Origin: Caldilineales bacterium | GTDB taxonomy: Bacteria; Chloroflexota; Anaerolineae; J102 | Reading direction: 5' to 3' | DNA: 33,013 nt | Assembly (NCBI GenBank): GCA_019695115.1 | Contig: JAIBAP010000064.1 | Coordinates: 1 to 33,013 of the forward strand | In this document: in pieces, positions 4,903 through 24,126 of the stretch | Numbering within the stretch: the stretch's first letter is position 1 | How the letters are laid out: every line of letters begins with the position of its first letter | The notes under the pieces: model-generated | The model's input: only the letters and a program-made list of their open reading frames with translations | Databases searched by the model: none | Told to the model about the DNA's origin: nothing | Program-made: the position numbers and the translations under genes

Positions 4903-5844
4903 CTATTTGAACAAAAACGACGAGGTGGTGGCCAGCAGCGCCAGCACGAAGGAGACGCTGAGCAGCTCGGGGACGCGGAAGAGACGCAGCTTGGCCACCC
5001 GCGTCTCGACCACGGCGATGACAACGCCCAGCGCGACCAGCTTGAGCGCCCAGGCGCCCAATGCCACCAGCAGCGCCGTCGGCGTGACGGCGACGGCGAC
5101 GCCCCAGGGCACGAAGAGGTTGGCCAGCAGGCTGGCGAAGATGGTCAGCTTGAGCCAGGACGCCCACTCCACCAGGGCCAGGTAGCGACCGGAGTACTCC
5201 AACACCATCGCTTCGTGGATCATGGTCAGCTCCAGGTGCGTGGAGGGGTTGTCCACCGGCAGCCGTCCGGTTTCGGCCAGGGTGACGATGAAGAGGGCGG
5301 CGAAGGCGAGCAGGTGGCCAGGGCTGACGGCGACGGTTGGGTCGCTCAGCACGCCGGCAACGATGCGGCCCAGGTTGGTGGAGCCGGCGGTCAGGGCCAG
5401 GGCAAAGATGGCCAGGGCCACGGCCGGCTCGGCGATGGCGGCCACCGTCATCTCGCGGCTGGCGCCCATGCCGCCGAAGGCCGTGCCCGGGTCGAGGCCG
5501 GCCAGCGCCAGGAAGAAGGTGCCCAGGAGCAGCAGGTAAACCACCACCAGCAGGTCGCCGCCCCAGTCGAAGGGCAGCGGCGTCACCAGCACCGGCACGA
5601 ACAGGGCGACGGCGGCGCTGCTGGCGAAGATGAGGTAGGGCGCCAGGCGGAACAGCCAGGAGGCGTTGCGCGACATCACCACCTCTTTGCCGAACAGCTT
5701 GCGCAGCTCGAAATAGGGCTGCCAGGGCGGCGCGCCGCGGCGATTTTGCAGCCGCGCCTTGAGCCAGCGCACCAGGCCCACCAGCCCCGGCGCCAGGGCC
5801 AGGGTCAACGCCAATTGCAGAGCTTCCAGGAGATAACCGGTCAT
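4903..5844 (-). CDS. Membrane anchor subunit (HyfC/NuoH-like)
   Basis: This 313-residue protein has about eight membrane helices and belongs to the NuoH/HycD/HyfC family. Diagnostic segments are RGAPPWQPYFELRKLFGKE near the N-terminus, the acidic loop PVDNPSTHLELTMIHEAM and the following VLEYSGRYLAL. These are standard NuoH-family signatures at the interface with the NuoD/NuoB-like subunits, where coupling starts. The start MTGYLLEALQ at 5844 is preferred. A longer frame upstream to 5958 would overlap the hyfB-like gene by over 100 bases and its extra residues are not family-like. One base separates it from the hyfB-like stop, consistent with translational coupling. Confidence 0.9.
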   Translation of the reverse strand: MTGYLLEALQLALTLALAPGLVGLVRWLKARLQNRRGAPPWQPYFELRKLFGKEVVMSRNASWLFRLAPYLIFASSAAVALFVPVLVTPLPFDWGGDLLVVVYLLLLGTFFLALAGLDPGTAFGGMGASREMTVAAIAEPAVALAIFALALTAGSTNLGRIVAGVLSDPTVAVSPGHLLAFAALFIVTLAETGRLPVDNPSTHLELTMIHEAMVLEYSGRYLALVEWASWLKLTIFASLLANLFVPWGVAVAVTPTALLVALGAWALKLVALGVVIAVVETRVAKLRLFRVPELLSVSFVLALLATTSSFLFK

Positions 5845-5845
5845 G

Positions 5846-7867
5846 TCAGAACCACCTTGCGGCCAGCAGCAGCGCCAGCAGGATGCCGGCGACGTAGGCC
5901 AGGTAGAGGTGCACGGAGCCAGCCTGGATGCGCCGCACCTGGCGCGCCGTCCAACCAACGGCCCCGATCAGCGGCTCGTACAGCCAGCGTTCGAACAGGG
6001 GCGTGATGTCGCTCTTGTAGGCGATGGACTGTACGAAATACTTCGATTCGGGGTGAAAGTCAATCGTCACTTCCTGCGCCGGGCGGTACAGTTCGGCGAA
6101 GATGCGCCGCAGCGGCTCGGCGAAGGCGGTGGCGGTGTATTCCATGCGCGGCGTCTGGCCGATGCGGCCGCAGCCCCAGGTGTCGCCCACGCGCAGGCGG
6201 CGGTTGACCCACGGGCTGCGCAGGGCCAGCGCGGCCAGGCCGAGCAGCGTCAGCAGGCCGACAGCGATCCAGGTTGGCGAGATGACGCCGAACCCCTCCG
6301 GCGTGCCCACGAAGAGGCCCAGGGTGAACGCTGTCCCCGTGTCGGGCAAGCCGCCCAGCCCGGCCAGCGCCTGTCCGAGCAGCGGCACAATCACGAAGGG
6401 CAGCACGCCCAGCGCCACGCAGGCCAGCGCCAGCAGCGCCATGCCAGCCAGCATCGAGCGCGGGGCTTCGTGCGCCTGTTCGGCCTCGTGCGAGCGGGGA
6501 ATGGCCAGGAAGGTGATGCCAAAGGCCTTGACGAAGCAGGCCGCCGCCAGTCCGCTGGTCAGCGCCAGCGCGCCCACGGCCAGCGGCATCGCCAGCGTCA
6601 CCTCGGCGGTGGGGATGGCAAAGCCCGCCAGCAGCGATTGGAAGACGATCCATTCGGACACGAAGCCGTTGAGCGGCGGCAGGGCCGAGATGGCAACGGC
6701 GCCCACCAGGAAGAAGGCGGCGGTCCAGGGCATGCGCTTGATCAGCCCGCCCATCTCCTCCATGTTGCGCGTGTGTGTGGCGTGCAGCACCGCGCCGGCG
6801 CCCAGGAAGAGCAGCCCCTTGAAGCTGGCGTGGTTGATGGTGTGGTACAGCCCGCCAATCAGACCGAGCGCCGCCAGCGCCGGCATGGCGTAGCTGTGGA
6901 AGATCAAGCCGGCCCCGACGCCGATCAGGATGATGCCGATGTTCTCCACCGAGTGATAGGCCAGCAGCCGCTTGAGGTCGTGCTCCATCAGGGCGTAGAG
7001 CACGCCGAGCAGGGCCGAGATGGCGCCGACGGCCAGCACGACGCCGCCCCACCAGGCCGGCCCGCCGCCCAGCAGGTCGAGCGCCACGCGCACCAGGCCG
7101 TAGATGCCCATCTTGATCACCACGCCCGACATCAGCGCCGAGACGTGGCTGGGCGCCACCGGGTGCGCCATGGGCAGCCAGACGTGCAGCGGGATGACCC
7201 CGGCTTTGGAGCCAAACCCGACCAGCGCCAGCAGAAACAGCACGTTGCGCGTCGTCGCCGCCAGCGTGGCGGCGTTGCCGCGCATGGCCTGAAACGAGGC
7301 GGTCAGGTCGCCGCCCGCCAGCAGCAGGAAGAGGGCCATCAGCGCCGCAAAGCCGACATGGGTCACGCCGACGTACCAGCCGGCGGAGCGCACGGCGCCC
7401 TCCTGATCGGCCTCGGTCAACACCAGCCCGTAAGCTGCCAGCGACATCGCTTCCCACAGGAAGAGGAAGGTGAAGGCGTTGTCGGCCATCACCTGCAGGC
7501 AGAGCGTGAGCAGCAGCAGGTTGAAGAGCGCGCCCAGGCGGCGCAGCGAGTAGCGGCCGTGATAGGCGGCGCTGTAGCTGAAACCGTAGACCGCCGCGGC
7601 CAGCCCCACCAGCCCGACGACGATGAGGAAGAAGGCGCCCAACCCGTCCAGGCGCAGCGCCGGGGCGATGAACCCGCCGCCGCTCCAGGCCAGCGACCAG
7701 GGCTTGGGCGTCAGCAAGGCGGCCAGGCCGAGCGTGAGCGCCGCTGCCGAGCCAACGCCGGCGCCGAGCGCCGTCAGCCAGCGGTTCAGGGCGCCGTTGC
7801 CGGCGAGCAGCGCGCCCAGCGCGCCGCCGAGGAAGGCGCCAATGATGAGTAACAGTAGGCTAAGCAT
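5846..7867 (-). CDS. Large antiporter-like subunit (HyfB/NuoL-like)
   Basis: This 673-residue polytopic membrane protein is of the NuoL/HyfB type. It has the antiporter core with FLFLWEAMSLAAYGLVLTE (helix-5 glutamate), LVGFGSKAGVIPLHVWLPMA (key lysine) and LKRLLAYHSVENIGIILIG. The C-terminal extension ends with the hydrogenase-4 style segment DTWGCGRIGQTPRMEYTA and a final hydrophobic helix. Its length fits HyfB/HycC. It lies 36 bases after the hyfI-like gene. It is expected to be the second ion-translocating unit of the complex. Confidence 0.9.
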   Translation of the reverse strand: MLSLLLLIIGAFLGGALGALLAGNGALNRWLTALGAGVGSAAALTLGLAALLTPKPWSLAWSGGGFIAPALRLDGLGAFFLIVVGLVGLAAAVYGFSYSAAYHGRYSLRRLGALFNLLLLTLCLQVMADNAFTFLFLWEAMSLAAYGLVLTEADQEGAVRSAGWYVGVTHVGFAALMALFLLLAGGDLTASFQAMRGNAATLAATTRNVLFLLALVGFGSKAGVIPLHVWLPMAHPVAPSHVSALMSGVVIKMGIYGLVRVALDLLGGGPAWWGGVVLAVGAISALLGVLYALMEHDLKRLLAYHSVENIGIILIGVGAGLIFHSYAMPALAALGLIGGLYHTINHASFKGLLFLGAGAVLHATHTRNMEEMGGLIKRMPWTAAFFLVGAVAISALPPLNGFVSEWIVFQSLLAGFAIPTAEVTLAMPLAVGALALTSGLAAACFVKAFGITFLAIPRSHEAEQAHEAPRSMLAGMALLALACVALGVLPFVIVPLLGQALAGLGGLPDTGTAFTLGLFVGTPEGFGVISPTWIAVGLLTLLGLAALALRSPWVNRRLRVGDTWGCGRIGQTPRMEYTATAFAEPLRRIFAELYRPAQEVTIDFHPESKYFVQSIAYKSDITPLFERWLYEPLIGAVGWTARQVRRIQAGSVHLYLAYVAGILLALLLAARWF

Positions 7868-9866: not shown

Positions 9867-10808
9867 CTACTGCGGGTGCGCCCGATACCAGGCGACGGTT
9901 GTCTTGATCGCCTGCTCGATGGGCGTGGCCTTGACGCCAAACGCTCGCTCGAACTTGCTGCTGTCCACGATGAACGGCTTCTCGAACTCGTACAGCATCT
10001 CCACCGACTCGCGGGCGGCGGGGATGAAGAGGCCGCCGAGTTGCAGCATCAGCCTGCCCATGCCGCTGGCCTTGAGCGGATGCCCGGTCGCGGCGAAGAC
10101 CAGCTCGGCGAACTGGCGCTGGCTGATCCCGGGGCGGTCGTTGGGGACGTGCCAGGCCTGGCCCAGGGCCTCGTCGCGCTCGCCCAGGATGGCAAGCGCT
10201 TTGCCGAAGTCCTCGATGTAGGTGGCGGTGTGGGGAAGGTCCAGCTTGCCGCCGAAGCTGGCGGCCTTGCCGGTCAGGGCCGGGTAGAAGACGCGCTCGC
10301 CGTGAGAAGAACCGAGCGCCCACGGCCCGAAGAAGTCCGAGCCGCGGCCCAGGGCCACGCGTACTTTGCCGGCGCGGTGCGCGGCCAGCGCCGCCTCGCT
10401 CATCGCCGCCCGCACCTTGCCTTTACGGGTGTGGGCGGCGTGAGGCAGGTCTTCGGTCAGCGGCTTGCCATTCGTGTCGCCGTACATGTAAGTGTTCTCG
10501 GCGATGACCAGCTTCACGCCGGTTCCAGTCAACCCCTCGATGATGGCGGCCTGCAGGGGCGGGAACTTCTGCGGCCACTCGTGATAGGCCGGTTGGGCGC
10601 ACTGGTAGGCCACGGCCGCACCCTGGGTCAGCTGGCGCACGGCGCTGGCGTTGTAGAGGTCGCCGGCGACCAGCTCGACGCCCGCGGGCGCCTCGGCCAT
10701 TTTGCCGCTGCGACTGACGACGCGCACGGGCGCGCCGCGGCGGACGAGTTCATTGGCGACAGATCGGCCGAGGGGGCCGGTCCCGAAAACGACGTGCAGT
10801 TCAGACAT
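9867..10808 (-). CDS. NAD(P)-dependent epimerase/dehydratase (extended SDR)
   Basis: This 313-residue protein has an N-terminal Rossmann motif (VVFGTGPLGRSV, residues 6-17) and the layout of extended short-chain dehydrogenases. ENTYMYGD (about 104-111) carries a tyrosine near the usual catalytic region. The strict YxxxK pair is not obvious, so it may be an atypical SDR. The C-terminal part resembles nucleotide-sugar epimerase-like proteins of unknown substrate. It starts 57 bases after the TetR gene in the same direction, with AAAGGA upstream of the ATG, and is probably co-transcribed with and controlled by that regulator. Confidence 0.85.
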   Translation of the reverse strand: MSELHVVFGTGPLGRSVANELVRRGAPVRVVSRSGKMAEAPAGVELVAGDLYNASAVRQLTQGAAVAYQCAQPAYHEWPQKFPPLQAAIIEGLTGTGVKLVIAENTYMYGDTNGKPLTEDLPHAAHTRKGKVRAAMSEAALAAHRAGKVRVALGRGSDFFGPWALGSSHGERVFYPALTGKAASFGGKLDLPHTATYIEDFGKALAILGERDEALGQAWHVPNDRPGISQRQFAELVFAATGHPLKASGMGRLMLQLGGLFIPAARESVEMLYEFEKPFIVDSSKFERAFGVKATPIEQAIKTTVAWYRAHPQ

Positions 10809-10865
10809 TCTTCGAGAGTCCTTTGGCGGGTTGGATGGTGGATGGGATAATCGACGCGGCGATCG

Positions 10866-11576
10866 TCAGGCGTCGTTCGCCGGGGTGAGGCCGAGCTGGC
10901 CGAGAAAGGCGGTCATCTCGTAGCGGTACATGGCCGCAGGGTCGCCCACCAGCGGCTGCAGGTGGCCGTACATCTCCAGCGCGGTCAGGCCGTAGATGCG
11001 CGCCCAACCGCTCATCAGCAGCCCCATCAGCGGGTCGGCCACTTCGATCCCCGACAACTGCCGCCAGGCCGCCACCCCCGCCCCGATGGCCGGCGGCACG
11101 GTCGCGTAGGCGGCGGGGATGGTCAGCTCGCCGCTGGCGTGGGCGCGGATGAACCAGCGGAACAGCCCCAGGAACGGCCGCCGGGCCAGGGGAAGGGTCA
11201 GCTCCGCCGGGGCCTGGTAGCCGGAGATGGGGTTGCCGCCGATGAGTTGGAAGTCGGTGGGGTGCGCCATCGCCCACTGCCGGTAGGCCAGGCAGAGGGC
11301 CAGGATCTTGTCGAAGGCCCGCTCCGCCGGCTCGGCCGCCTCCGCCGCCTCCATGGCCTCGGCCAGGTCGGTGAAGGCATCCACGATCAGGGCGGTGATC
11401 AGGTCTTCCAGGCGGGGGAAGTAGTTGTAGATGGCCGGGGCAGTGATGCCCAGCGTGCGGGCGATGCCGCGCAGGGTGAGGCCGGCGGCGCCGTGCTCGA
11501 TCATTTGCTGGCGGGCGGCGGCCTTGATGCGCTGGCGCAGGTCGGTTGGTGGCTGGTTTCGTTTGGGTCGAGGCAT
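10866..11576 (-). CDS. TetR/AcrR-family regulator with WHG-type C-terminal domain
   Basis: This 236-residue protein has an N-terminal TetR helix-turn-helix: IKAAARQQMIEHGAAGLTLR then GIARTLGITAPAIYNYFP (about 35-52). The C-terminal region (AYRQWAMAHPTDFQLIGGNP) matches the TetR C-terminal domain often labelled WHG. The gene lies just downstream of a 33-bp palindrome and strong promoter and is followed by an SDR epimerase. It probably represses this two-gene unit and responds to an unknown ligand, perhaps a substrate of the epimerase. Confidence 0.9.
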   Translation of the reverse strand: MPRPKRNQPPTDLRQRIKAAARQQMIEHGAAGLTLRGIARTLGITAPAIYNYFPRLEDLITALIVDAFTDLAEAMEAAEAAEPAERAFDKILALCLAYRQWAMAHPTDFQLIGGNPISGYQAPAELTLPLARRPFLGLFRWFIRAHASGELTIPAAYATVPPAIGAGVAAWRQLSGIEVADPLMGLLMSGWARIYGLTALEMYGHLQPLVGDPAAMYRYEMTAFLGQLGLTPANDA

Positions 11577-11646: not shown

Positions 11647-11814
11647 GCCCTGGTGAGGACGAATTTCGGGCCAATTTCAGGCGTTGACGTGACCCCAGGC
11701 ATGACCTCCGGCACTACGGCACATGACCGGCCCAGCGCGATGCTACGATCATCATCTTTCAACCGCCACTCACCACATAAGGCCCCCATGCACCGCCTGC
11801 GCGCCCTGTAGGAT

Positions 11815-11953
11815 GGGCGGATTGCTGGGATGAGCGGATCACTGAACCCCCACCCTGTCGCTTCGATCCGCCAGTGAGGAATCCCTAAGCCGGAAGTTCG
11901 CAGGCAGGAGGGTGGGCGGATTGCTGGGTTGGGCGGATCACCGAACTCCCACC
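11815..11953. repeat. 40-bp imperfect direct repeat, two copies 99 bases apart
   Basis: Copy 1 (11815-11854) and copy 2 (11914-11953) agree at 36 of 40 positions. Both begin GGGCGGATTGCTGGG and contain GCGGATCAC and GAAC, ending CCCACC. The intervening segment has no coding signal. It may be a local duplication or a dispersed intergenic repeat. Confidence 0.75.
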
Positions 11954-13418: not shown

Positions 13419-15794
13419 ATGAACGAAGCCGACACCTGCCGCATCCTGGTCGAACCGAAGCTACGAGCAGCAGGCTGGGAGACGCCGCCGCACCGGGTGG
13501 CCTCGCAGCCGTTGATTGCACCGGGCCGGATCGTGCCTTTGGGCCGGGGCGGGCGGCGGGAGCCGCAGCAGCGACCGGATTATCTGCTTTATTACGCGGC
13601 CAACCAGCCGCTGGCCGTGGTGGAGACCAAGCGCGATACGCTGCCCGCGGGCGAGGGCATGCAGCAGGCCAAAGCCTATGCCGAAAAGCTTGGCCTGACC
13701 TTTGCCTTTGCCACCAATGGCAAGCAGGTGCTCGAATTCGACTACGTTTTGGGCCGCGAGCGCACGCTGGAGGACTTCCCGGCGCCGGAGGAATTGTGGC
13801 AACGCCGGCATGGGAGCTTGACCCCATCGGTGCAGCAGCGTCTGCTGACGCCCTACCAGCGCCTGCCCGACAAAGAGCCGCGCTATTATCAGGAGATCGC
13901 CATCAACCGGGTCGTGCAGGCGATCCTGGCCGGGCGCAGGCGCAACCTGCTGACGCTGGCCACCGGCACCGGCAAGACCTTCGTCGCCTTCCAGATCTGC
14001 TGGCGGCTGTGGGAGATGCGCTGGAACCGGGCCGGCGAGCATCGTCGCCCCAAGATCCTCTTTCTCTCCGACCGCAACATCCTGGTGGATGACCCCAAAG
14101 ACAACATGTTCGCGCCTTTTGGCGACGCCCGGCACAAGATCGAGGGTGGGAAGGTCGTCAAGAGTCGGGACATGTACTTCGCCATCTATCAGGCCATTGC
14201 CCAGGACGAGAACCGTCCCGGCCTCTATCGCGGCTACGCGCCCGATTTCTTCGACCTGATCGTGGTGGACGAATGTCATCGCGGCAGCGCCCGCGATGAC
14301 AGCAACTGGCGGGAGATCCTGGAGTATTTCGAGCCAGCCTATCAGCTAGGCATGACGGCCACGCCGCTGCGCGAAGACAACCGCGACACCTATCGCTATT
14401 TCGGCAATCCACTCTACACCTACAGCCTGCGCCAGGGCATCGAGGATGGCTTTTTGGCGCCGTACCGCGTGCGGCAGGTGGTGTCGGAGTGGGATGCGAG
14501 CGGCTGGCGGCCGGACGAGGGGCAGCAAGACCGGTTCGGGCGAGAGGTGCCCGACGAGCTTTACCAGACCAAAGATTTCGAGCGGGTCGTGGCCCTGAAA
14601 GCGCGCACCGAGGCCATCGCCCGCCACCTGACCAATTTTCTGAACAAGAGCAACCGTTTCGACAAGACCATCGTCTTCTGCGTCGACCAGGAACACGCCG
14701 ACGCCATGCGCCACGCCCTGACCAACCTGAACGATGACCTGATGCGCGCTCATCCTGATTATGTGGTGCGGATCACGGCGGATGAAGGCGATATTGGCCG
14801 CGGGCATCTGGGCCGCTTCAAGGATCCGGAGGAGGAAACGCCCGTCATCGCCACCACCTCGCACCTGCTGACCACCGGCGTGGACATCCCCACCTGCACG
14901 AATGTCGTGCTGGCGCGGGTGATCGGCGCCACCACCGAGTTCAAGCAGATCATCGGCCGGGGCACGCGGGTGCGCGAGGATCACGGCAAGCTCTTTTTCA
15001 ACATCCTCGACTACACCGGCTCGGCCATGCAGCGCTTCGCCGACCCCGCCTTCGACGGCGAACCGGCCGAGATCACCGAGGAGGAGATCGACGAGGCAGG
15101 GAACACGATCACGGTCAGAAGCAAGCAGAGCTATGAGCAGCCGCAGGAGGGGGAAGGGGCTGCGGGCGAGGGCGGGTGGACGGTGGTCGGGCAAGGGGAG
15201 GAGGGCCAGGGGGAGGGCGCCCCGCGCAAATTCTATGTGGACGAGGGCCAGGTGGAGATCGTGGCCGAGATGGTCTACGACCTGGATGCGGACGGCCGCC
15301 GGCTGCGCGCCAGCAGTTTCAGCGATTACGCCGGCAAAACGGTGCGCACGCTCTATACCGCGCCGGAGGCGTTGCACGGTCATTGGGTCAGCGTCGAGCA
15401 GCGCCAACGGGTGGTCAAGGCCCTGGCCGAGCGCGGGATCGACCTGGACTATCTGCGTCAGGTGACGCAACAGCCCGAGGCCGATCCCTTCGATTTGCTG
15501 TGCTATCTGGCCTATGGCGCGCCGCTGCGCACGCGCCGCGAGCGGGCCGAGCGGTTGCGGGGACGCCAACGCGATTTCTTCGACGCTTACGGCCCAGAGG
15601 CGCGGGCCATCCTGGACGAGTTGCTGGACAAGTACATCGAGCACGGCGAACCGCTCTTGGCCATGCCCGACCTGCTGAAGGTGCCGCCCATCTCGCGGCA
15701 CGGCAATGTGATCGAGATCATGCGCCTGTTCGATGGGCCAGACAAGTTGGTCCAGGCGGTGGATCAAATGCAGGCGCTGTTGTACGCCGCTTAG
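13419..15794 (+). CDS. hsdR: Type I restriction enzyme R subunit (EcoEI-like)
   Basis: This 791-residue protein has an N-terminal PD-(D/E)xK nuclease of the HSDR_N type: Asp54 in QRPDYLLYY and Glu69-x-Lys71 in VVETKRD. An SF2 translocase follows, with Walker A ATGTGKT (181-187), DECH in VVDECHRG (284-287), motif III TAT in GMTATPL and motif VI QIIGRGTRV. The C-terminal ~200 residues match the EcoEI R-subunit C-terminal domain that contacts the methylase, preceded by an acidic/Gly-rich low-complexity linker (about 565-600). It cuts unmethylated DNA after translocation. First gene of the operon. A possible -10 box TATACT lies at about 13328, but its -35 is not clear. Confidence 0.95.
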   Translation: MNEADTCRILVEPKLRAAGWETPPHRVASQPLIAPGRIVPLGRGGRREPQQRPDYLLYYAANQPLAVVETKRDTLPAGEGMQQAKAYAEKLGLTFAFATNGKQVLEFDYVLGRERTLEDFPAPEELWQRRHGSLTPSVQQRLLTPYQRLPDKEPRYYQEIAINRVVQAILAGRRRNLLTLATGTGKTFVAFQICWRLWEMRWNRAGEHRRPKILFLSDRNILVDDPKDNMFAPFGDARHKIEGGKVVKSRDMYFAIYQAIAQDENRPGLYRGYAPDFFDLIVVDECHRGSARDDSNWREILEYFEPAYQLGMTATPLREDNRDTYRYFGNPLYTYSLRQGIEDGFLAPYRVRQVVSEWDASGWRPDEGQQDRFGREVPDELYQTKDFERVVALKARTEAIARHLTNFLNKSNRFDKTIVFCVDQEHADAMRHALTNLNDDLMRAHPDYVVRITADEGDIGRGHLGRFKDPEEETPVIATTSHLLTTGVDIPTCTNVVLARVIGATTEFKQIIGRGTRVREDHGKLFFNILDYTGSAMQRFADPAFDGEPAEITEEEIDEAGNTITVRSKQSYEQPQEGEGAAGEGGWTVVGQGEEGQGEGAPRKFYVDEGQVEIVAEMVYDLDADGRRLRASSFSDYAGKTVRTLYTAPEALHGHWVSVEQRQRVVKALAERGIDLDYLRQVTQQPEADPFDLLCYLAYGAPLRTRRERAERLRGRQRDFFDAYGPEARAILDELLDKYIEHGEPLLAMPDLLKVPPISRHGNVIEIMRLFDGPDKLVQAVDQMQALLYAA

Positions 15795-15820: not shown

Positions 15821-17626
15821 ATGCTCACCCACATTCGCATCCGCAACTTCAAACGCTTCGGTGACGTCGAGTTCGATCTGGGCCAGGCAGTCGTACTGAT
15901 CGGGCCGAACAACTCGGGCAAGACCACCGCCCTGCAGGCGCTCGCCTTGTGGGACATCGGTCTGCGGCGCTGGAACGAGAAGTACGGCGGCAGAAAATCT
16001 CCAGAGGAAAGGCCGGGCGTTACCATCAACCGCCGCGATCTCAACGCCATTCCTATCCCTGACGCTAACTTGTTGTGGCGCGATCTGCGAGTGCGCAGCA
16101 TCGCCGCGCGTGGCACGGGCCAGCAGCGGACGCAGAACATCCGCATCGACATCGTCGTCGACGGCGTGACCGAAGGACGCGCCTGGTCGTGCGGATTGGA
16201 GTTCGACTACGCCAACGACGAATCGTTCTACTGCCGGCCGCTGCGCATGAGCGATGACGATCCCCCCAAGCGCATGGCGGTGCCACCGGAAGCTGCCACC
16301 ACTGGGTTTGCGTTCTTGCCGCCCATGTCCGGCCTGGCCGACCGCGAGTTCATCAAGCAAACCGGCGAGATCGGCGTGTTGGTCGGGCAGGGTCAGACCG
16401 CACAGGTTTTGCGCAATCTGTGTTATCAGGTCTACGGTGAGCTGGGCGCGCTACCCCCAGAGCCGCTGCAACTGAAAGAGGCGCGTGCGCCGTACGGCGA
16501 GCGCCAGCAGGAGTCCGCCGGCTCGGTGGAATGGCAGGAGCTGGTGCAGCACATTAGGCGGCTGTTTGGGGTGACGCTGTTGCCGCCGAAGTACATCAAA
16601 GAGCGCAGCGAGCTGACCATGGCCTACGTCGAGCCGGGCGGCACGACGCTCGATCTCTCGTCGGCCGGCCGCGGCTTGCACCAGACGCTGCTGCTGCTGG
16701 CCTATCTCTACGCCAACCCGCGCACGGTGCTGCTGTTGGACGAGCCCGACGCCCACCTGGAGGTGCTGCGCCAGCGCCAGACTTACCAGTTGATCACCGC
16801 GGTGGCGCAGAAACAAGGGTCGCAGATCATCGCCGCCAGCCACTCCGAGGTTGTGCTCAACGAGGCGGCCGGCCGCGACACGGTCATCGCCTTCGTGGGC
16901 GCGCCTCATCGCATGGACGACCGGGGCAGCCACGTGCTGAAGGCGTTGACCGCGATTGGCTCCGACCAGTACTACCAGGCGGAGCAAACCGGTTGGGCGC
17001 TGTACGTCGAGGGCAGCACCGACCTGGCCATCCTACAGGCTCTTGCCGCGACGCTGCAGCACCCGGCGGTCCAGGTGCTTGAGCGACCGTTCGTGGTTTA
17101 CGTCGGTTCCAACGTGCCGCAGAAGGCTCGCGACCATTTCTACGGACTGCGCGAGGCCAAGCCGGACTTCGCCGGCATTGCCATCTTCGACCGGCTGGAG
17201 CGCAAGCTGCAAGAGGGCCAGCCCCTGGTGGAGCTGATGTGGCAGCGGCGGGAGATCGAGAATTACGTGTGCCAGCGCGACGTGTTGCTGGCCTACGCAC
17301 GGCACGATGTGTCTGACAACCAGTCTGGCCTGGCCGAGCGCGAGCGTCGCGAGCAGGCCATGTCCGCGGCCATCGACGAGGTGATGCAAGCGCTGGAGAC
17401 GCTGAGCCGGCCCGGCCCATGGTCAACGGACATCAAAGCCAGCGACGATTTCCTCGATCCGGTCTTCGAGCGCTACTTCCGCAAGCTGGGCCTGCCCAAC
17501 CTGATGCGCAAGACCGACTACCACGTGTTGGCGGGATTGGTTCCACGTGAACAGATCGACGCCGAAGTCGGCGAGAAGCTGGATGCCGTGGTGCGTGTAG
17601 CCGGACAGGCGCGACCGCGACCTTGA
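15821..17626 (+). CDS. AAA/ABC-type ATPase with C-terminal TOPRIM-like domain (OLD/PARIS-like)
   Basis: This 601-residue protein starts MLTHIRIRNFKRFGDVEFDL and has Walker A GPNNSGKT (28-35), an ABC-like segment LDLSSAGRGLHQTLLLLAYL, Walker B LLLDEPDAHLE (about 304-314) and SHSEVVLNEA. After residue ~390 comes WALYVEGSTDLAIL with the E..D pair of a TOPRIM core, then GIAIFDRLE (about 455) and REIENYVCQRDVLLAYA. This order is that of OLD-family nucleases and of fused AriA-AriB (PARIS; AAA15 plus DUF4435) proteins. The ATG at 15821 follows GGAG and lies 26 bases after hsdR; its stop is 11 bases before hsdM. It is probably a defence effector or sensor tied to the restriction system. Confidence 0.8.
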   Translation: MLTHIRIRNFKRFGDVEFDLGQAVVLIGPNNSGKTTALQALALWDIGLRRWNEKYGGRKSPEERPGVTINRRDLNAIPIPDANLLWRDLRVRSIAARGTGQQRTQNIRIDIVVDGVTEGRAWSCGLEFDYANDESFYCRPLRMSDDDPPKRMAVPPEAATTGFAFLPPMSGLADREFIKQTGEIGVLVGQGQTAQVLRNLCYQVYGELGALPPEPLQLKEARAPYGERQQESAGSVEWQELVQHIRRLFGVTLLPPKYIKERSELTMAYVEPGGTTLDLSSAGRGLHQTLLLLAYLYANPRTVLLLDEPDAHLEVLRQRQTYQLITAVAQKQGSQIIAASHSEVVLNEAAGRDTVIAFVGAPHRMDDRGSHVLKALTAIGSDQYYQAEQTGWALYVEGSTDLAILQALAATLQHPAVQVLERPFVVYVGSNVPQKARDHFYGLREAKPDFAGIAIFDRLERKLQEGQPLVELMWQRREIENYVCQRDVLLAYARHDVSDNQSGLAERERREQAMSAAIDEVMQALETLSRPGPWSTDIKASDDFLDPVFERYFRKLGLPNLMRKTDYHVLAGLVPREQIDAEVGEKLDAVVRVAGQARPRP

Positions 17627-17637
17627 AAGGATTTCCC

Positions 17638-19191
17638 GTGCCCCGCACTCCCACTCCCTCCACCCCCCAACACCTGCGCAGCATCATCAAATCGGCGCGG
17701 GATGTGATGCGCAAGGACAAGGGCCTCAGCGGCGACCTCGACCGCCTGCCCATGCTCACCTGGATCATGTTCCTCAAGTTCCTGGATGACATGGAGCGGA
17801 TCCGTGAGGCCGAGGCGCAGTTGGCCCGCGTCGCCTATCACCCGCCCATCGCCCCGCCCTACCGCTGGCGCGATTGGGCCGCTCCCGAAGACGGCGTCAG
17901 CGGCGACGACCTCAAAGCCTTCATCAACCAGGATGAGGCCATGCGCCCGGACGGACGCCGCGGCCCGGGGCTGTTCGCCACTCTGCGCGGGCTGCAAAGC
18001 GAGAACGGCGCCGGGCGCGAGGAGATCATTGCCACCGTGTTCCGCGGGGTCAGCAACCGCATGGAGAGCGGCTATCTGTTGCGGGATGTGATCAACCTGG
18101 TCAACCGCATCCATTTCGATTCATCGGAGGAAACGCACACGCTCAGCCAGTTGTACGAGAGCATGTTGCAGGAGATGCGGGACGCGGCCGGCGACGCCGG
18201 CGAGTTCTACACCCCGCGGGCGGTGGTGCGCTTCATGGTCGAGGTGATCGACCCGATCTTAAGCGAGGTCGTGCTCGACCCGGCCTGCGGCACCGGCGGC
18301 TTCCTGGTCGAGGCCTACAAACATCTGGCCGGCCAGTGCCGCACCGCCGCCGACCGCCAGACGCTGGAGCACAGCATCGTGGGCAACGAGGCCAAGCCCC
18401 TGCCCTATCTGCTGGCCGAGATGAACCTGCTGCTGCACGGCATGGAATCGCCCAGCGTCGCCTATGGCAACAGCCTGGGCCAGCCGCTGACCGAGATCAG
18501 CGACGGCAAACGGGTGGATGTGATCCTGACCAACCCGCCCTTTGGCGGCGAGGAGGAGCGGGGCATCCTGGGCAATTTCCCCGAGGACAAGCAGACCAGC
18601 GAGACGGCGCTGCTGTTTTTGCAGCTGATCATGCGCAAGCTGCGGCGGGTGGGGCGGGATTCGAGCCGCGGGGGCCGGGCGGCGGTGGTGGTGCCCAACG
18701 GCACCCTGTTTGGCGATGGCGTGGCCGCGCGCATCAAAGAGGAATTGCTGAAGGACTTCAACCTGCACACGGTCGTGCGGCTGCCCAACGGCGTCTTCGC
18801 TCCCTACACCGCCATCCCCACCAACCTGCTCTTCTTCGACCGCAGCGGCCCCACGCGGGTGATCTGGTATTACGAGCTGCCGCTGCCGGAGGGCCGCAAG
18901 AACTACACCAAGACGCAGCCGCTGCGCTACGAGGAATTCGCCGGGCTGCTGGCATGGTGGGGCCAGCGCGAGGAGAACGACCACGCCTGGCAAGCGGCGG
19001 CGGCGGATGTGCTGAAGTACGACGCCGGCGGCCGGCTGCTCTCCGCCAACCTGGACCTCAAGAACCCGCGCGGGGGCGACGCCTTCGAGCATATGGCGCC
19101 GGAGCAGTTGGTGGAAGACATTTTGAAGAAGGAACAGCGAGTCATAGCGCTGATGAACGAGATCAAGACTCTTTTGGCGGGGGCTGTCTGA
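17638..19191 (+). CDS. hsdM: Type I restriction-modification DNA methyltransferase subunit M
   Basis: This 517-residue N6-adenine methyltransferase has an N-terminal helical HsdM_N domain (GDLDRLPMLTWIMFLKFLDD). GEFYTPRAVVRFMVEVIDP precedes the SAM-binding motif DPACGTGGFL (about 213-222), and the catalytic motif is NPPF in LTNPPFGGEE (about 298-301). GTG 17638 is preferred because AAAGGA lies 7 bases upstream. A TTG at 17623 in the same frame overlaps the previous stop. The stop overlaps the hsdS start (TGATG), so M and S are translationally coupled. Motifs are intact, so methylation depends on whether a working S subunit is made. Confidence 0.95.
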   Translation: MPRTPTPSTPQHLRSIIKSARDVMRKDKGLSGDLDRLPMLTWIMFLKFLDDMERIREAEAQLARVAYHPPIAPPYRWRDWAAPEDGVSGDDLKAFINQDEAMRPDGRRGPGLFATLRGLQSENGAGREEIIATVFRGVSNRMESGYLLRDVINLVNRIHFDSSEETHTLSQLYESMLQEMRDAAGDAGEFYTPRAVVRFMVEVIDPILSEVVLDPACGTGGFLVEAYKHLAGQCRTAADRQTLEHSIVGNEAKPLPYLLAEMNLLLHGMESPSVAYGNSLGQPLTEISDGKRVDVILTNPPFGGEEERGILGNFPEDKQTSETALLFLQLIMRKLRRVGRDSSRGGRAAVVVPNGTLFGDGVAARIKEELLKDFNLHTVVRLPNGVFAPYTAIPTNLLFFDRSGPTRVIWYYELPLPEGRKNYTKTQPLRYEEFAGLLAWWGQREENDHAWQAAAADVLKYDAGGRLLSANLDLKNPRGGDAFEHMAPEQLVEDILKKEQRVIALMNEIKTLLAGAV

Positions 19192-20392
19192 TGCACGGCT
19201 GGCAGCAGATGCGGATGGGCGATGCCCTTACCAAATCGGACGAGTGGATCGACATCGCGCCCGACCGAAAATACAGACAGGTGACGGTTAGGCTTTGGGG
19301 GAAGGGTGTGGTGCTGCGAACCGAAACCGATGGCAGCCAGATCGCCGCCTCCCGCCAGCATGTTGTGCGTTCCGGCCAATTCATTCTCTCGCGCATCGAC
19401 GCCAGAAACGGGGCCTTTGGTTTGGTGCCAGATGATCTCGATGGCGCTGTCGTCTCGAACGATTTTCCTTCCTTCGAGGTAAATCGAGATCGACTGCTGC
19501 CGGGCTTCTTGGATTGGATGAGCAAAACTCAGGATTTCGTGCAGCTTTGTGTGGCGGCAAGTGAAGGCACAACCAATCGCGTTCGGCTTCAAGAGGGGCG
19601 ATTCCTGGCGATGGAAATCCCCCTCCCCCGCTGGCCGAGCAGCAGCGGATCGTGGGCCGGATCGAGGCGCTGGCCGCGCGCATCGAGGAGGCGAAGGGGC
19701 TGCGGGCGCAGGCGATGGGGGAGGTGGAATTAGCGCCTCTCGCGACGGCGCGTCAGATACTCGGGTGGCTGCCTCAGAAACAAACTACTTTGGGTCAGTG
19801 GTTGACATCTCGCCGACAAGGCATCCAGACCGGACCATTTGGTGCTCAACTAGGATCAGAAGATTTCGTTGATTCCGGAGTCCCGGTAATTACGATTGGA
19901 AATGTTCAGTACTCAGGTCTTGAACGTGGCGCACTAAAATATGTGACATTGCAGAAAGCAAGATATCTGTCCCGTTATGATGTTCAAGAAGGTGATATTT
20001 TGTTTGCTCGAATGGGTACAGTTGGGAGATGCTGTGTCGTGCCGGAGTGGGCATCCGGCTGGCTGTATAACTATCACTTAATTCGCGTAGTTTTGGACAA
20101 GGAAGCACTCCTGCCACAATTCGCTCACTGGTCAATCCGGGCAAGTACCGATGTTGAGGAGTTTCTTGGTATAACGATCCGAGGAGCAACAAGACAGGGT
20201 GTCAACCAAGACATAGTCAGCAATCTCCCGATCCGTGTACCGCCGCTCGACGAACAACGCCACATCGTCGCCTACCTGGACGATCTGCAAGCGAAAGTGG
20301 AGGCGGTGAAGCGCCTGCAGGCGGAGACGCAGGCGGAGTTGGCGGCGCTGCTGCCGGCGGTGCTGGCGCGGGCGTTTCGGGGGGAGTTGTGA
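19191..20392 (+). pseudogene. hsdS: Type I specificity subunit S, frameshifted between the two recognition domains
   Basis: The first half (19191-19628) encodes target-recognition domain 1 up to MEIPLP. The frame then becomes RWPSSSGSW and ends at 19733. The second half continues in another frame from about 19634 as LAEQQRIVGRIEALAARIEE, a classic HsdS central helix, then recognition domain 2 and PPLDEQRHIVAYLDDLQAKV near the end. Adding one C to the five-C run at 19625-19629 would restore LPPLAEQQRIV and one ~400-residue HsdS of normal length. This may be a real mutation, slipped-strand phase variation or a base-calling error. The second half could be translated separately, since half-S proteins can sometimes dimerise. 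Confidence 0.88.
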
Positions 20393-20458
20393 TATAAAGG
20401 CGTGTAGAGAATCCTCTCAACCAGCGGTTGCACTCATTCTGAAACTTATTCAAGAAGT

Positions 20459-20908
20459 ATGGCCGACATCTTATTGACACAAGCCGAAGCAGATGCCTTG
20501 CTGGTACTCAAAAAGTATCGAATTGACGATACAATTTGGCCCTATCCTGGCCCCGGCGAGAAGATCATCGTACCCCTCGAATCGGCTGACAAGAAGGAAT
20601 CGTTTTTATTGGATATCAGCCGCGGAAGCATTAATCTAGCCAAAGGAACCTATCAGAATAGGGCGCACAAGGTGATCGTCCTGGTCAGACTTGATTTCAA
20701 CGGCCCCCCGCACAGAAATCCAGATGGTACCGATATCCTCTGTCCGCATCTTCACATCTACAGAGAAGGTTACGGCGATAAATGGGCGATTGCTCTCCCC
20801 AAAGCAAAATTTTCAAACGAAACCGATCCTTGGGTTATGCTTCAGGACTTCATGAATTACTGCAATATTGAAGAAAAACCCAATATTCAAAAAAACTTAT
20901 TAGTATGA
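20459..20908 (+). CDS. DUF6978-like protein
   Basis: This 149-residue protein resembles the DUF6978 family. Diagnostic stretches are the start [35 protein letters not shown] and the His-rich core [20 protein letters not shown]. The clustered histidines and cysteine (PHRNPDG...CPHLHIY) could bind metal, but no function is known. It begins 66 bases after the hsdS stop with no clear Shine-Dalgarno site and overlaps the next gene by four bases (ATGA). It is noticeably richer in A/T and in AAA/AAT codons than the hsd genes, a sign of separate acquisition. The family name is from recall of the pattern. Confidence 0.75.
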
Positions 20909-21669
20909 TGGATGACATTAGGCGACTCATTGAACAATATACGTCTTGGCTGAATGACAAAACTCATCTTCGTCAGATTGAAGATTGGGTAGAAATAACC
21001 ACGCCCTATCTTGATCGTCACAACGACTATCTACAGATTTTCGCCAAGCGTGCGGGAAGTCGAATAACACTTTCGGATGATGGGTATATTATTAACGATC
21101 TACGATTGTCTGGCTGCGATTTAGACACACCAAAAAGAAAACAGTTTCTCAAGATAGCATTAAACGGATTTGGAGTTCAATTAAAAGGCGACGTTCTAAC
21201 GGTCGACACTAGCGAAGGCAATTTTTCGCAACAAAAACATAACTTGATACAAGCGATGATTGCGATAAATGATATGTTCTATCTTGCGGTGCCGATGGTG
21301 AGAAGCGTATTTCTTGAAGACGTGACGGAATGGATGGATCTATCGGACATTCGCTATATTAGTCAGGTAAAATTTACAGGAGCCAGTGGTTATGATCATG
21401 TCTTCGATTTTGTTATTCCAAAATCGAGACAGATGCCGGAGCGTATTTTGAAGGCCATCAATCGACCGAGTCGTGAAACAGCGGAATCTTTTGCTTGGGG
21501 ATGGATAGATACACGCGAGGTACGTTCTCCTGATTCTCGAGCCTATGCTTTCCTCAATGATTCTGAACGAACAATTTCATCTGACGTTACAGATGCACTA
21601 ACCAGTTATGAAATTGTGCCCATTCCTTGGCAACAACGCGACCGGTATCGATCTGAACTGGCATTGTAG
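20905..21669 (+). CDS. DUF1828/DUF1829-like protein
   Basis: This 254-residue protein has an N-terminal DUF1828-like region ([36 protein letters not shown]) and a helix [19 protein letters not shown] ending in [14 protein letters not shown]1829-like C-terminal half follows ([32 protein letters not shown]). It overlaps the DUF6978-like gene by four bases, so the two form a coupled pair. It is also AT-rich. A second, diverged relative is at 23043-23861. Function is unknown; context points to defence or a two-component toxin/antidote arrangement (inference). Confidence 0.75.
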
Positions 21670-21781
21670 AAGCAGTCAGTTGACAGCCAAACCGGGCTAT
21701 GTTAAGTTGGTCTCGCTTCATTCCAGCGACGCCGAACGATGAGCGGGCCGCCGCAGCGGCCACAAGGAGGAATCTTGAGAG

Positions 21782-22783
21782 ATGTCAGCCACCAATCTTT
21801 CCATTCCAACCGAACTGGCTGAGCCACGCTGCTTCGTGTTGCAGCCCATCATCAACGAGCCTCAGGCCTGGAGCCAGGCAGGAGCTTACAAGGGTAAGGT
21901 TTTTGGCCGGGATTGGGGCGCCATGCTGCCTGGTCGTCGTGATCGCACGCGCATCGAAGAGAAATTGCTGCATCGGCGCCTGGTGCCATTCTGGCACATT
22001 CGTTGTACTTCACATTTTGACTTCAGCCGGCTGAACGAGTATGAGATCAACGCACTTAATCCTGACGCAACTACGATTACCTTGATCGGGCAAGGGCAAC
22101 AACTTGATTTCAGGGTCGATCAAACCGGGCGTTCTATGCCGCGTATCTCCGTTTCTGGTTTTGAACGTTGTGTCACAAATCGCGAATTCGAGGAATATAT
22201 CGATTCGTACATCCGGCTTGAAAGCGCCACAACCCCGCAGATCAAACAACAGATTCAAAGGCGCCTGGATGGTTACACCAAGCAGAAGCCCGTACAAGTC
22301 CTTGACCTCGAAGCCTTTGCAAAGCGGCTCGAGGTTGATGGCAGACCTCTATTCGATGACGAACTCGAGACCCTGGTTGTGCCGCCCCTGGAAGGGGCAG
22401 ATACAGTGGTCAAGCGAGCAATGAAAGAAGTTATGGTATCTATCGATGCACAGACGATTCACGAATGGGGATTGCGTGCTGAAACAGTCGATCTATACTT
22501 CCGACCACTATTCGTTTTCGAATTCGAGAAATACGACGAGCGGAACAATCCACTAGACAGAAGACTTGAAGAACTGGACGCACTGGATAGGAATCACTGG
22601 ACAAATCTCGCCACAACCGAATTCCAGATGTCCAGCATGCCATGGGGCAAAATCCTCAAACTATCCTCAGATATTGGCATCATCTTGCTGCAAGATGTTC
22701 CTGTTTTGGGGCGTTCACTTGAGATTGGCAAAGCGATTGCAGAGCAAGGGCCTGGCATCGTCGATGACTTGAGAGGACGCTAG
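21782..22783 (+). CDS. Unrecognised 333-residue protein in the defence island
   Basis: I do not recognise this family. The N-terminal third carries a distinctive conserved-looking stretch YKGKVFGRDWGAMLPGRRD followed by IEEKLLHRRLVPFWHIRC. The middle is charged and helical (IKQQIQRRLDGYTKQ; FDDELETLVVPPLEGADTVV). The C-terminal ~50 residues contain an amphipathic to hydrophobic stretch (ILKLSSDIGIILLQDVPVLG) that might touch a membrane or form a partner interface. No signal peptide. AGGAGG lies 11 bases before ATG 21782. It follows the DUF1828-like gene by 112 bases and is followed by an hsdS fragment. Confidence 0.7.
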   Translation: MSATNLSIPTELAEPRCFVLQPIINEPQAWSQAGAYKGKVFGRDWGAMLPGRRDRTRIEEKLLHRRLVPFWHIRCTSHFDFSRLNEYEINALNPDATTITLIGQGQQLDFRVDQTGRSMPRISVSGFERCVTNREFEEYIDSYIRLESATTPQIKQQIQRRLDGYTKQKPVQVLDLEAFAKRLEVDGRPLFDDELETLVVPPLEGADTVVKRAMKEVMVSIDAQTIHEWGLRAETVDLYFRPLFVFEFEKYDERNNPLDRRLEELDALDRNHWTNLATTEFQMSSMPWGKILKLSSDIGIILLQDVPVLGRSLEIGKAIAEQGPGIVDDLRGR

Positions 22784-22842
22784 GCTGCGAGCGCGTTCGG
22801 CTTATCTGCCGCCGATTCACCTGCGTTGCATCCGTCTTCTTG

Positions 22843-22938
22843 GTGGAGGCGGTGAAGCGCCTGCAAGCAGAGACGCAAGCCGAGTTGGCGGTGCTGCTGC
22901 CGGCAGTGCTGGCGCGGGCGTTTCGGGGGGAGTTGTGA
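22843..22938 (+). pseudogene. Second copy of the hsdS 3' end (96 bp)
   Basis: This segment matches hsdS 20297-20392 at 90 of 96 positions without gaps and ends at the same TGA. It encodes VEAVKRLQAETQAELAVLLP then AVLARAFRGEL. Five of the six differences are silent and one gives Ala to Val. The similarity stops abruptly upstream of GTGGAGGCGG and after the stop. It is either a remnant of a second hsdS gene or a duplication boundary made when cargo genes were inserted. Confidence 0.9.
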
Positions 22939-23042
22939 GGCGTCTTGACGCGCCGACGATCATCTTCGCCATCTGCTTCTGAAGGTTGTACAATGCAGGG
23001 TAGCGAGTCATCCTGACGCAGATACAGTAACGCTATACAATC

Positions 23043-23861
23043 ATGGCAGAACTTCTGACCGACTCAGACATTCAGCTGCACAGCATGAATCCCGCCACGA
23101 TCGAACAGGATTTTCGCGAAAAAGTGTGCGCCCAAGTCTACCTGGAGCCAGCAGGAAGATCGCGTTATCGTGTGTTCACGCCGTTTCATTTCGACGATGG
23201 CGATCATTTGGTCATGGTGTTGCGCCGGCAGAATGGGCATTGGCTGCTCTCTGACGAGGGCCACACCTATATGCACCTCACCTATGATCTCGACGAAAAG
23301 AGCCTGCACCAGGGCACGCGGCAGGAGATCATCACCAACGCACTCAGCGCCTTTTCGGTTGACGATGTGGGCGGCGAATTGCAGACCGAGATCAGGGATG
23401 AGCGTTACGGCGAAGCCCTCTTCGATTTCATCCAGGCCATCCTGCGCATCAACGACGTCACCTATCTCTCCCGCGAGCGGGTGAAATCCACTTTCATGGA
23501 CGACTTTCGAGCCTTCATAGATCAACATGTCCCTGCCAGTCGCCGGGTCTTCGACTGGCATCATCCGCAGTATGATCCTGAAGGCACTTACCCGGTCGAT
23601 TGCCAAATCAACGGCATGACCCGACCGCTCCTCGTCTTCGCCCTGCCCAATGACAACAAGACCCGCGACGCCAACATCGCTTTGCATCAGTACGAGCGCT
23701 GGGGTTTAGATTTCAGATCTCTGAGCATCTTCGAGAATCAGGAAGAGATCAATCGCAAAGTACTTGCGCGTTTCAGCGATGTCTGCGAAAAGCAGTACTC
23801 CAATCTGCACGGCAATCGCGAGCGCATTGCACGGTTCCTGCGCGAAGTTATGGAAATCTAG
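23043..23861 (+). CDS. DUF1828-like protein, second copy
   Basis: This 272-residue protein shares the layout of the 254-residue DUF1828-like protein. YRVFTPFHFDDGDHLVMVLR and HWLLSDEGHTYMHL match the LSDDG segment of the other protein. FDFIQAILRINDVTYLSRER then VKSTFMDDFRAFID parallels [14 protein letters not shown]...VRSVFLEDV. The C-terminal half (PLLVFALPNDNKTRDANIAL; LSIFENQEEINRKVLARFSD) looks like DUF1829. It starts 104 bases after the hsdS fragment. There is no Shine-Dalgarno site, but TATACAAT ends just before the ATG, which may indicate a leaderless transcript. Its base composition is closer to the host than that of the first copy. Confidence 0.7.
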   Translation: MAELLTDSDIQLHSMNPATIEQDFREKVCAQVYLEPAGRSRYRVFTPFHFDDGDHLVMVLRRQNGHWLLSDEGHTYMHLTYDLDEKSLHQGTRQEIITNALSAFSVDDVGGELQTEIRDERYGEALFDFIQAILRINDVTYLSRERVKSTFMDDFRAFIDQHVPASRRVFDWHHPQYDPEGTYPVDCQINGMTRPLLVFALPNDNKTRDANIALHQYERWGLDFRSLSIFENQEEINRKVLARFSDVCEKQYSNLHGNRERIARFLREVMEI

Positions 23862-24126
23862 CCGGCAGTAGCATCTCCATGCCATTCATCTCGACCTCCA
23901 CTTCATCCACCTCGCCGGGCAGCACTAAACCCCACCCTCAGCCGATGTCCAGCGGCCTGGCAGCCATGCCGCACACACCCGCCAGACTCGCCTGACGCCA
24001 CATGGCAGTTGGGGCCGGCGCCTTCGGGGACAGCAGCGCCGCCTGGGGACAGTTCAGGGGATCGCCAGCAGCATGGCGCGCACGGCCCGCGCCTGGCAGC
24101 CGGCGCAAGCGAGCTTCTGCCCTTGC

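Follow-up and report, generated by a model that had tools for sequence, protein, structure and literature searches.

Recurrent orphan 3' ends of hsdS behind type I restriction-modification operons of Anaerolineae, probable remnants of lost operons

Orphan 3' ends of the specificity gene hsdS recur in relatives of the Caldilineales bacterium analyzed here, often standing in series with defence-like genes between them; the gene fragments involved are mostly terminal, their divergence is of the coding type, and deletions of operons accompany them. We consider it probable that type I restriction-modification (RM) operons with their cargo genes were stacked at one locus and that redundant operons were deleted, the cargo and a short tail remaining. 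The 33,013-nucleotide stretch analyzed (the window) is contig 64 (JAIBAP010000064.1) of a 6.0-Mb genome in 135 contigs (GCA_019695115.1), and relatives carrying this operon type are catalogued as Caldilineales and Anaerolineae. In the window, the second copy of a repeated hsdS end (copy 2) is most likely the left-over 3' terminus of an additional hsdS allele that has been lost. The relevant features are as follows.

13419..15794, plus strand: hsdR, 791 aa, EcoEI-type restriction subunit (Pfam ResIII and EcoEI_R_C)
17623..19191, plus strand: hsdM, 522 aa (Pfam N6_Mtase and HsdM_N)
19192..20392, plus strand: hsdS, final gene of the operon, with a frame shift near 19620-19640 (open reading frames; Pfam Methylase_S in the second half; comparison with genomes G008 and G142)
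20297..20392, plus strand: copy 1, the 3' end of hsdS, VEAVKRLQAETQAELAALLPAVLARAFRGEL followed by the stop (repeat search, codon alignment)
20459..20908, plus strand: DUF6978 protein, candidate defence protein PDC-M24A of PADLOC (Pfam, PADLOC)
20905..21669, plus strand: DUF1828+DUF1829 protein, candidate defence protein PDC-M24B of PADLOC (Pfam, PADLOC)
21782..22783, plus strand: third cargo gene, encoding a 333-aa protein of unknown family (other genomes of the class have homologues)
22843..22938, plus strand: copy 2, orphan hsdS 3' end (repeat, codon comparison, silent-site analysis)
23043..23861, plus strand: DUF1828 protein with partial likeness to PDC-M24B (Pfam, PADLOC, homologue in G008)

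The resident hsdS is frame-broken in the assembly, being one C short near 19620-19640 relative to G008 and G142, which may reflect a sequencing error, a pseudogene or a switch; the missing C falls in a C-rich stretch (19600-19660). The 333-aa protein had no Pfam and no PADLOC match, and no hsdS tail was found near its homologues in the short stretches searched.

A direct repeat search of the window recovered the 96-nucleotide repeat as the earlier note had described it, with 90 of 96 positions (94%) identical between 20297-20392 and 22843-22938, no gap, the same TGA stop and a spacing of 2546; chance can be set aside, since self-comparison of the window gave the repeat an E value of 5e-36. The flanks are unlike to the left of copy 2 and to the right of both copies, and copy 2 comprises 96 bases without a recognition domain. 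The longest identical runs measure 33 and 23 bases, the former being the final 33 bases of the copies. Within this genome, the AFRGEL-stop motif with a CG-type arginine occurs at these two sites only. Rfam gave no RNA family match at E<=0.1 for positions 19000-24000. Codon-by-codon alignment bore out that five of the six changes are silent (CAG/CAA, GCG/GCA, CAG/CAA, GCG/GCC, GCG/GTG and GCG/GCA), the single replacement being GCG/GTG (A to V).

Under drift, at least five silent changes out of six would arise with a probability between 0.008 and 0.047 according to the mutation model assumed; the proposal that a dead duplicate would not favour silent sites is thus of modest force in the window alone but becomes strong with the other loci. 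Across 13 tail pairs, which are partly non-independent and come from a motif search biased to conserved ends, 108 differences at 279 silent sites and 65 at 783 replacement sites were counted (pS 0.39, pN 0.08), silent-site divergence being five times replacement-site divergence. The simplest reading of these sequences is that, during their divergence, the tail copies each belonged to a working hsdS gene, and the same silent pattern at many loci upholds the claim that both window copies were once coding.

The recurrence of such tails emerged from a DNA search over 41 genomes, which led to an hsdS in G005, of another genus of the family, with two further tails downstream, and from a pattern search that covered 396 genomes of the class, together with one GTDB contig scan for the tail motif; tails were found partly by the AFRGEL motif, which favours copies conserved there. 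Many are free-standing, with in-frame stops shortly upstream. Orphan tails with differing genes or spacers between them were present in G005 (two), G008 (two), G237 (two), G066 (four), G045 (four), maxbin.031 (two) and G105 (two tails and two fusions), and one was found outside the phylum, in a Chitinispirillaceae-labelled genome. They represent the last 40-170 bases of hsdS in direct orientation, with 5' limits ranging from ~40 to >150 bases. In G005 the order is hsdS, DUF6978, DUF1829, tail, two genes, tail and another gene, and in G008 it is hsdS, gene, tail, DUF1828 gene, tail and gene. In G045 (locus L075), a single 4.40-Mb contig, four orphan tails lie 3' of hsdS with a different gene after each, all starting a few bases from the tail stop; one of these cargo genes sits behind an intact hsdS in G040, with 62% identity. 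At L129 (2328-3000), four orphan tails follow one another and represent two hsdS classes.

Orphan ends are roughly tenfold commoner for hsdS than for other genes at these loci. At loci fetched by hsdM alone, an orphan 3' end lay downstream of 4 of 30 hsdS genes that had 1 kb or more of downstream sequence, the window itself being among the four, versus 5 of 320 other ORFs that measured 250 aa or more, one of the five being an hsdM (odds ratio 9.7, Fisher p=0.004). RM-gene fragments are mostly terminal, hsdS ends lying downstream and hsdM or hsdR starts upstream or fused, and some internal hsdR fragments are also present. In addition, a copy of the hsdM 3' part lies between hsdM and hsdS at L079 (9108-9335), so hsdM ends can also be left behind.

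Collapsed operons were found at L128, L136, L137 and L121, where the intervening operon is gone and the downstream gene is kept. The first ~21 hsdR codons are joined to the last ~20 hsdS codons at L137 and L136, ~100 hsdR codons to an hsdS tail at L128, and the first 38 hsdM codons to an hsdS tail in two fusions at L121, both with junctions at CGCCG, which is common to hsdM and hsdS. According to match coordinates, all five fusions are in frame, that of L136 having later gained a stop; two share a junction and two others nearly do, leaving about three independent events. Moreover, G142 carries an intact hsdM-hsdS-gene X arrangement on one contig (L066) and, on another (L136), gene X preceded by a fusion scar, the two gene X copies being 92% identical. 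G105 retains a single copy each of hsdR, hsdS and hsdM. Four scars separate hsdS from hsdM, in the order hsdR, hsdS, cargo, scar, cargo, tail, cargo, tail, cargo, scar, cargo, hsdM. Its array at L121 (12200-19335, minus strand) has six modules, with two in-frame fusions of an hsdM start to an hsdS end and two orphan tails. L140 resembles a decaying operon.

A plausible course of events can be outlined. In RM operons of this kind, hsdS is the last gene and is directly followed by one or more cargo genes. A new operon-plus-cargo unit would enter a locus already holding one, by a route that we infer to be recombination within the hsd genes common to both; redundant hsd copies would then be lost and the cargo kept, together with the short hsdS tail before it, giving an end state of intact RM, cargo A, tail B and cargo B. 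In the window, cargo A would comprise the DUF6978, DUF1829 and 333-aa genes, and cargo B the DUF1828 gene at 23043. Where cargo starts a few bases from the hsdS stop, the ribosome-binding site of that cargo would lie within the tail, and the tail would thereby be shielded from deletion. Starts within ~15 bases of the tail stop were seen at copy 3 of G005, copy 3 of G008, both tails of maxbin.031, four of G045 and three of G105. A role as ribosome-binding leader in every case was rejected, fitting about half of the orphan tails and not the window, where copy 2 is probably a passive relic because the next start is at least 104 bases away.

The earlier note had proposed that a second hsdS allele either stood here or was brought in with the cargo. 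The first option is favoured by the many loci and the visible head-tail fusions, while the second is less likely, because in G005 the same cargo pair lies directly behind a copy-1-type tail. Between the window and G005, which belongs to another genus, the tail, the intergenic stretch and the DUF6978-DUF1829 pair are all 74-87% alike, versus 48% for the second target-recognition domain (TRD2) and 40% beyond DUF1829. Given that G005 shares tail, intergenic stretch and both genes, copy 1 belongs with this pair, and copy 2 therefore goes with the DNA to its right. The likeness of copy 2 to the G005 tail is 82% and to copy 1 94%, indicating a second allele from the same operon lineage. Judged from sequence, the DUF1828 gene at 23043 is probably the retained cargo of the lost operon; its homologue in G008, encoding an 80% identical protein, stands behind hsdS sequence only in the form of another orphan tail. 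We infer the assignment of copy 2 to this cargo, and likewise the order of events in the window. Beside copy 2, the window holds no full second hsdS and no leftover hsdR or hsdM head; a close strain with this operon was not found, and neither of the other two genomes of the genus has a close hsdM. Recombination between the 96-base repeats, by which the cargo could be deleted as also suggested previously, would be possible with identical runs of 33 and 23 bases, but such a deletion was not found in any genome.

Among other explanations, the one that survives best, although unlikely, is that the hsdS tail serves as an insertion site, at which cassettes recombine through RecA or an unknown recombinase, replacing the tail and pushing the old one to the far side. 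The hsdS-cargo-tail geometry, the presence of a tail at every joint of cassette-like arrays and the identity of the last 33 bases in the window would all suit it. However, the identifiable cargo genes contain no integrase domain (one of the three window cargo genes is without a known family), the varying 5' limits of the tails offer no constant crossover point, unlike hsdS classes lie side by side at L129, and hsdR and hsdM heads also occur where entire operons were lost. Integration at a fixed site was rejected on account of the varying limits. A quite unlikely view is that hsdS tails are working joints of a cassette platform, with RM operons as docking sites on which defence genes would be added, moved and lost via the conserved hsdS 3' end, without an integrase of their own, in integron-like arrays. 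Local duplication of the hsdS end at cargo insertion, by long target duplication or template switching and with subsequent drift, would account for the identity (94%) and the exact limits of the window copies and for palindromic elements between the copies at L069 and L113, but we judge it very improbable in view of the silent bias across the 13 pairs, the different hsdS classes among copies of one locus, and head-tail fusions that are deletions rather than duplications. An assembly artefact or strain mixture in this metagenome-derived genome hardly deserves credence. In its favour, contigs of this sample often stop at hsdM or within hsdS, and the reading frame of hsdS is broken in the window; against it, six sites distinguish the copies, their flanks are unlike, and a genome in a single contig, with four orphan tails, has the same architecture.

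Several known systems resemble the tails in part. Islands that insert at gene 3' ends via tyrosine recombinases leave the gene end duplicated on the far side of the inserted DNA, a feature shared by the present loci, in which, unlike in such islands, no integrase was seen, the crossover point is not fixed and other gene ends are left over. In phase-variable hsdS loci, the extra copies carry target-recognition domains, commonly lie in inverted repeats and are often accompanied by a recombinase, whereas here just the last 40-170 bases are present, in direct orientation and without a recognition domain. Phase-variable type I RM systems with duplicated hsdS, such as SpnIII (REBASE survey, PMC7394358), likewise possess an extra adjoining hsdS and repeats able to recombine. 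Defence islands with RM operon replacement (PMC12707154) likewise turn over their RM operons and accumulate further defence genes at a single locus; a series of left-over hsdS ends is absent from that review, the words "remnant" and "scar" not occurring in its text. The match of the DUF6978 and DUF1828/1829 pair to PDC-M24A and B in PADLOC concerns the cargo only, not the repeat. No description of an orphan hsdS tail series was found in the open-access literature, and the new part is the recurrence of these ends across loci. Turnover of defence loci is usually inferred from strain comparison; if orphan hsdS ends mark each lost RM operon, a single genome would offer a readable record of the RM units gained and lost and of the cargo that each brought, the left-over ends recording how defence loci are rebuilt. 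Candidate defence genes could also be found cheaply by searching directly behind stand-alone hsdS tails, and the head-tail fusions, being in frame, suggest that the cargo may need translation from the old operon for its expression.

Palindromic or repeated elements, which are not genes, lie between copies at L069, L113, L129 and L074, and the simple operon-loss model leaves them unexplained; some tail copies may have moved along with palindromic elements. Those of L069 and L113 have the terminal repeats AGACCTGACAGGTTT / AAACCTGTCAGGTCT, and the same element parts hsdM starts in one genome and hsdS ends in another (L113, 12438-12880; L069, 7390-7800). Target-site duplication by these elements was rejected, as the flanking copies at L069 differ and their limits differ. 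At L129, the spacers between orphan tails are palindromic and ~100 bp long (TTTGAATCACGAA...TTCGTGTTTCAAA), and at L074 arrays of ~120-base repeats flank the RM operon (5103-6955 and 10628-11106), one member overlapping the hsdS end. Within the window, the gene between hsdR and hsdM (15833-17626) has an ATPase-like start, GPNNSGKT, and is perhaps a candidate OLD-type nuclease set within the RM operon. A 45-base intergenic direct repeat with 89% identity was also observed at 11810-11854 and 11909-11953.
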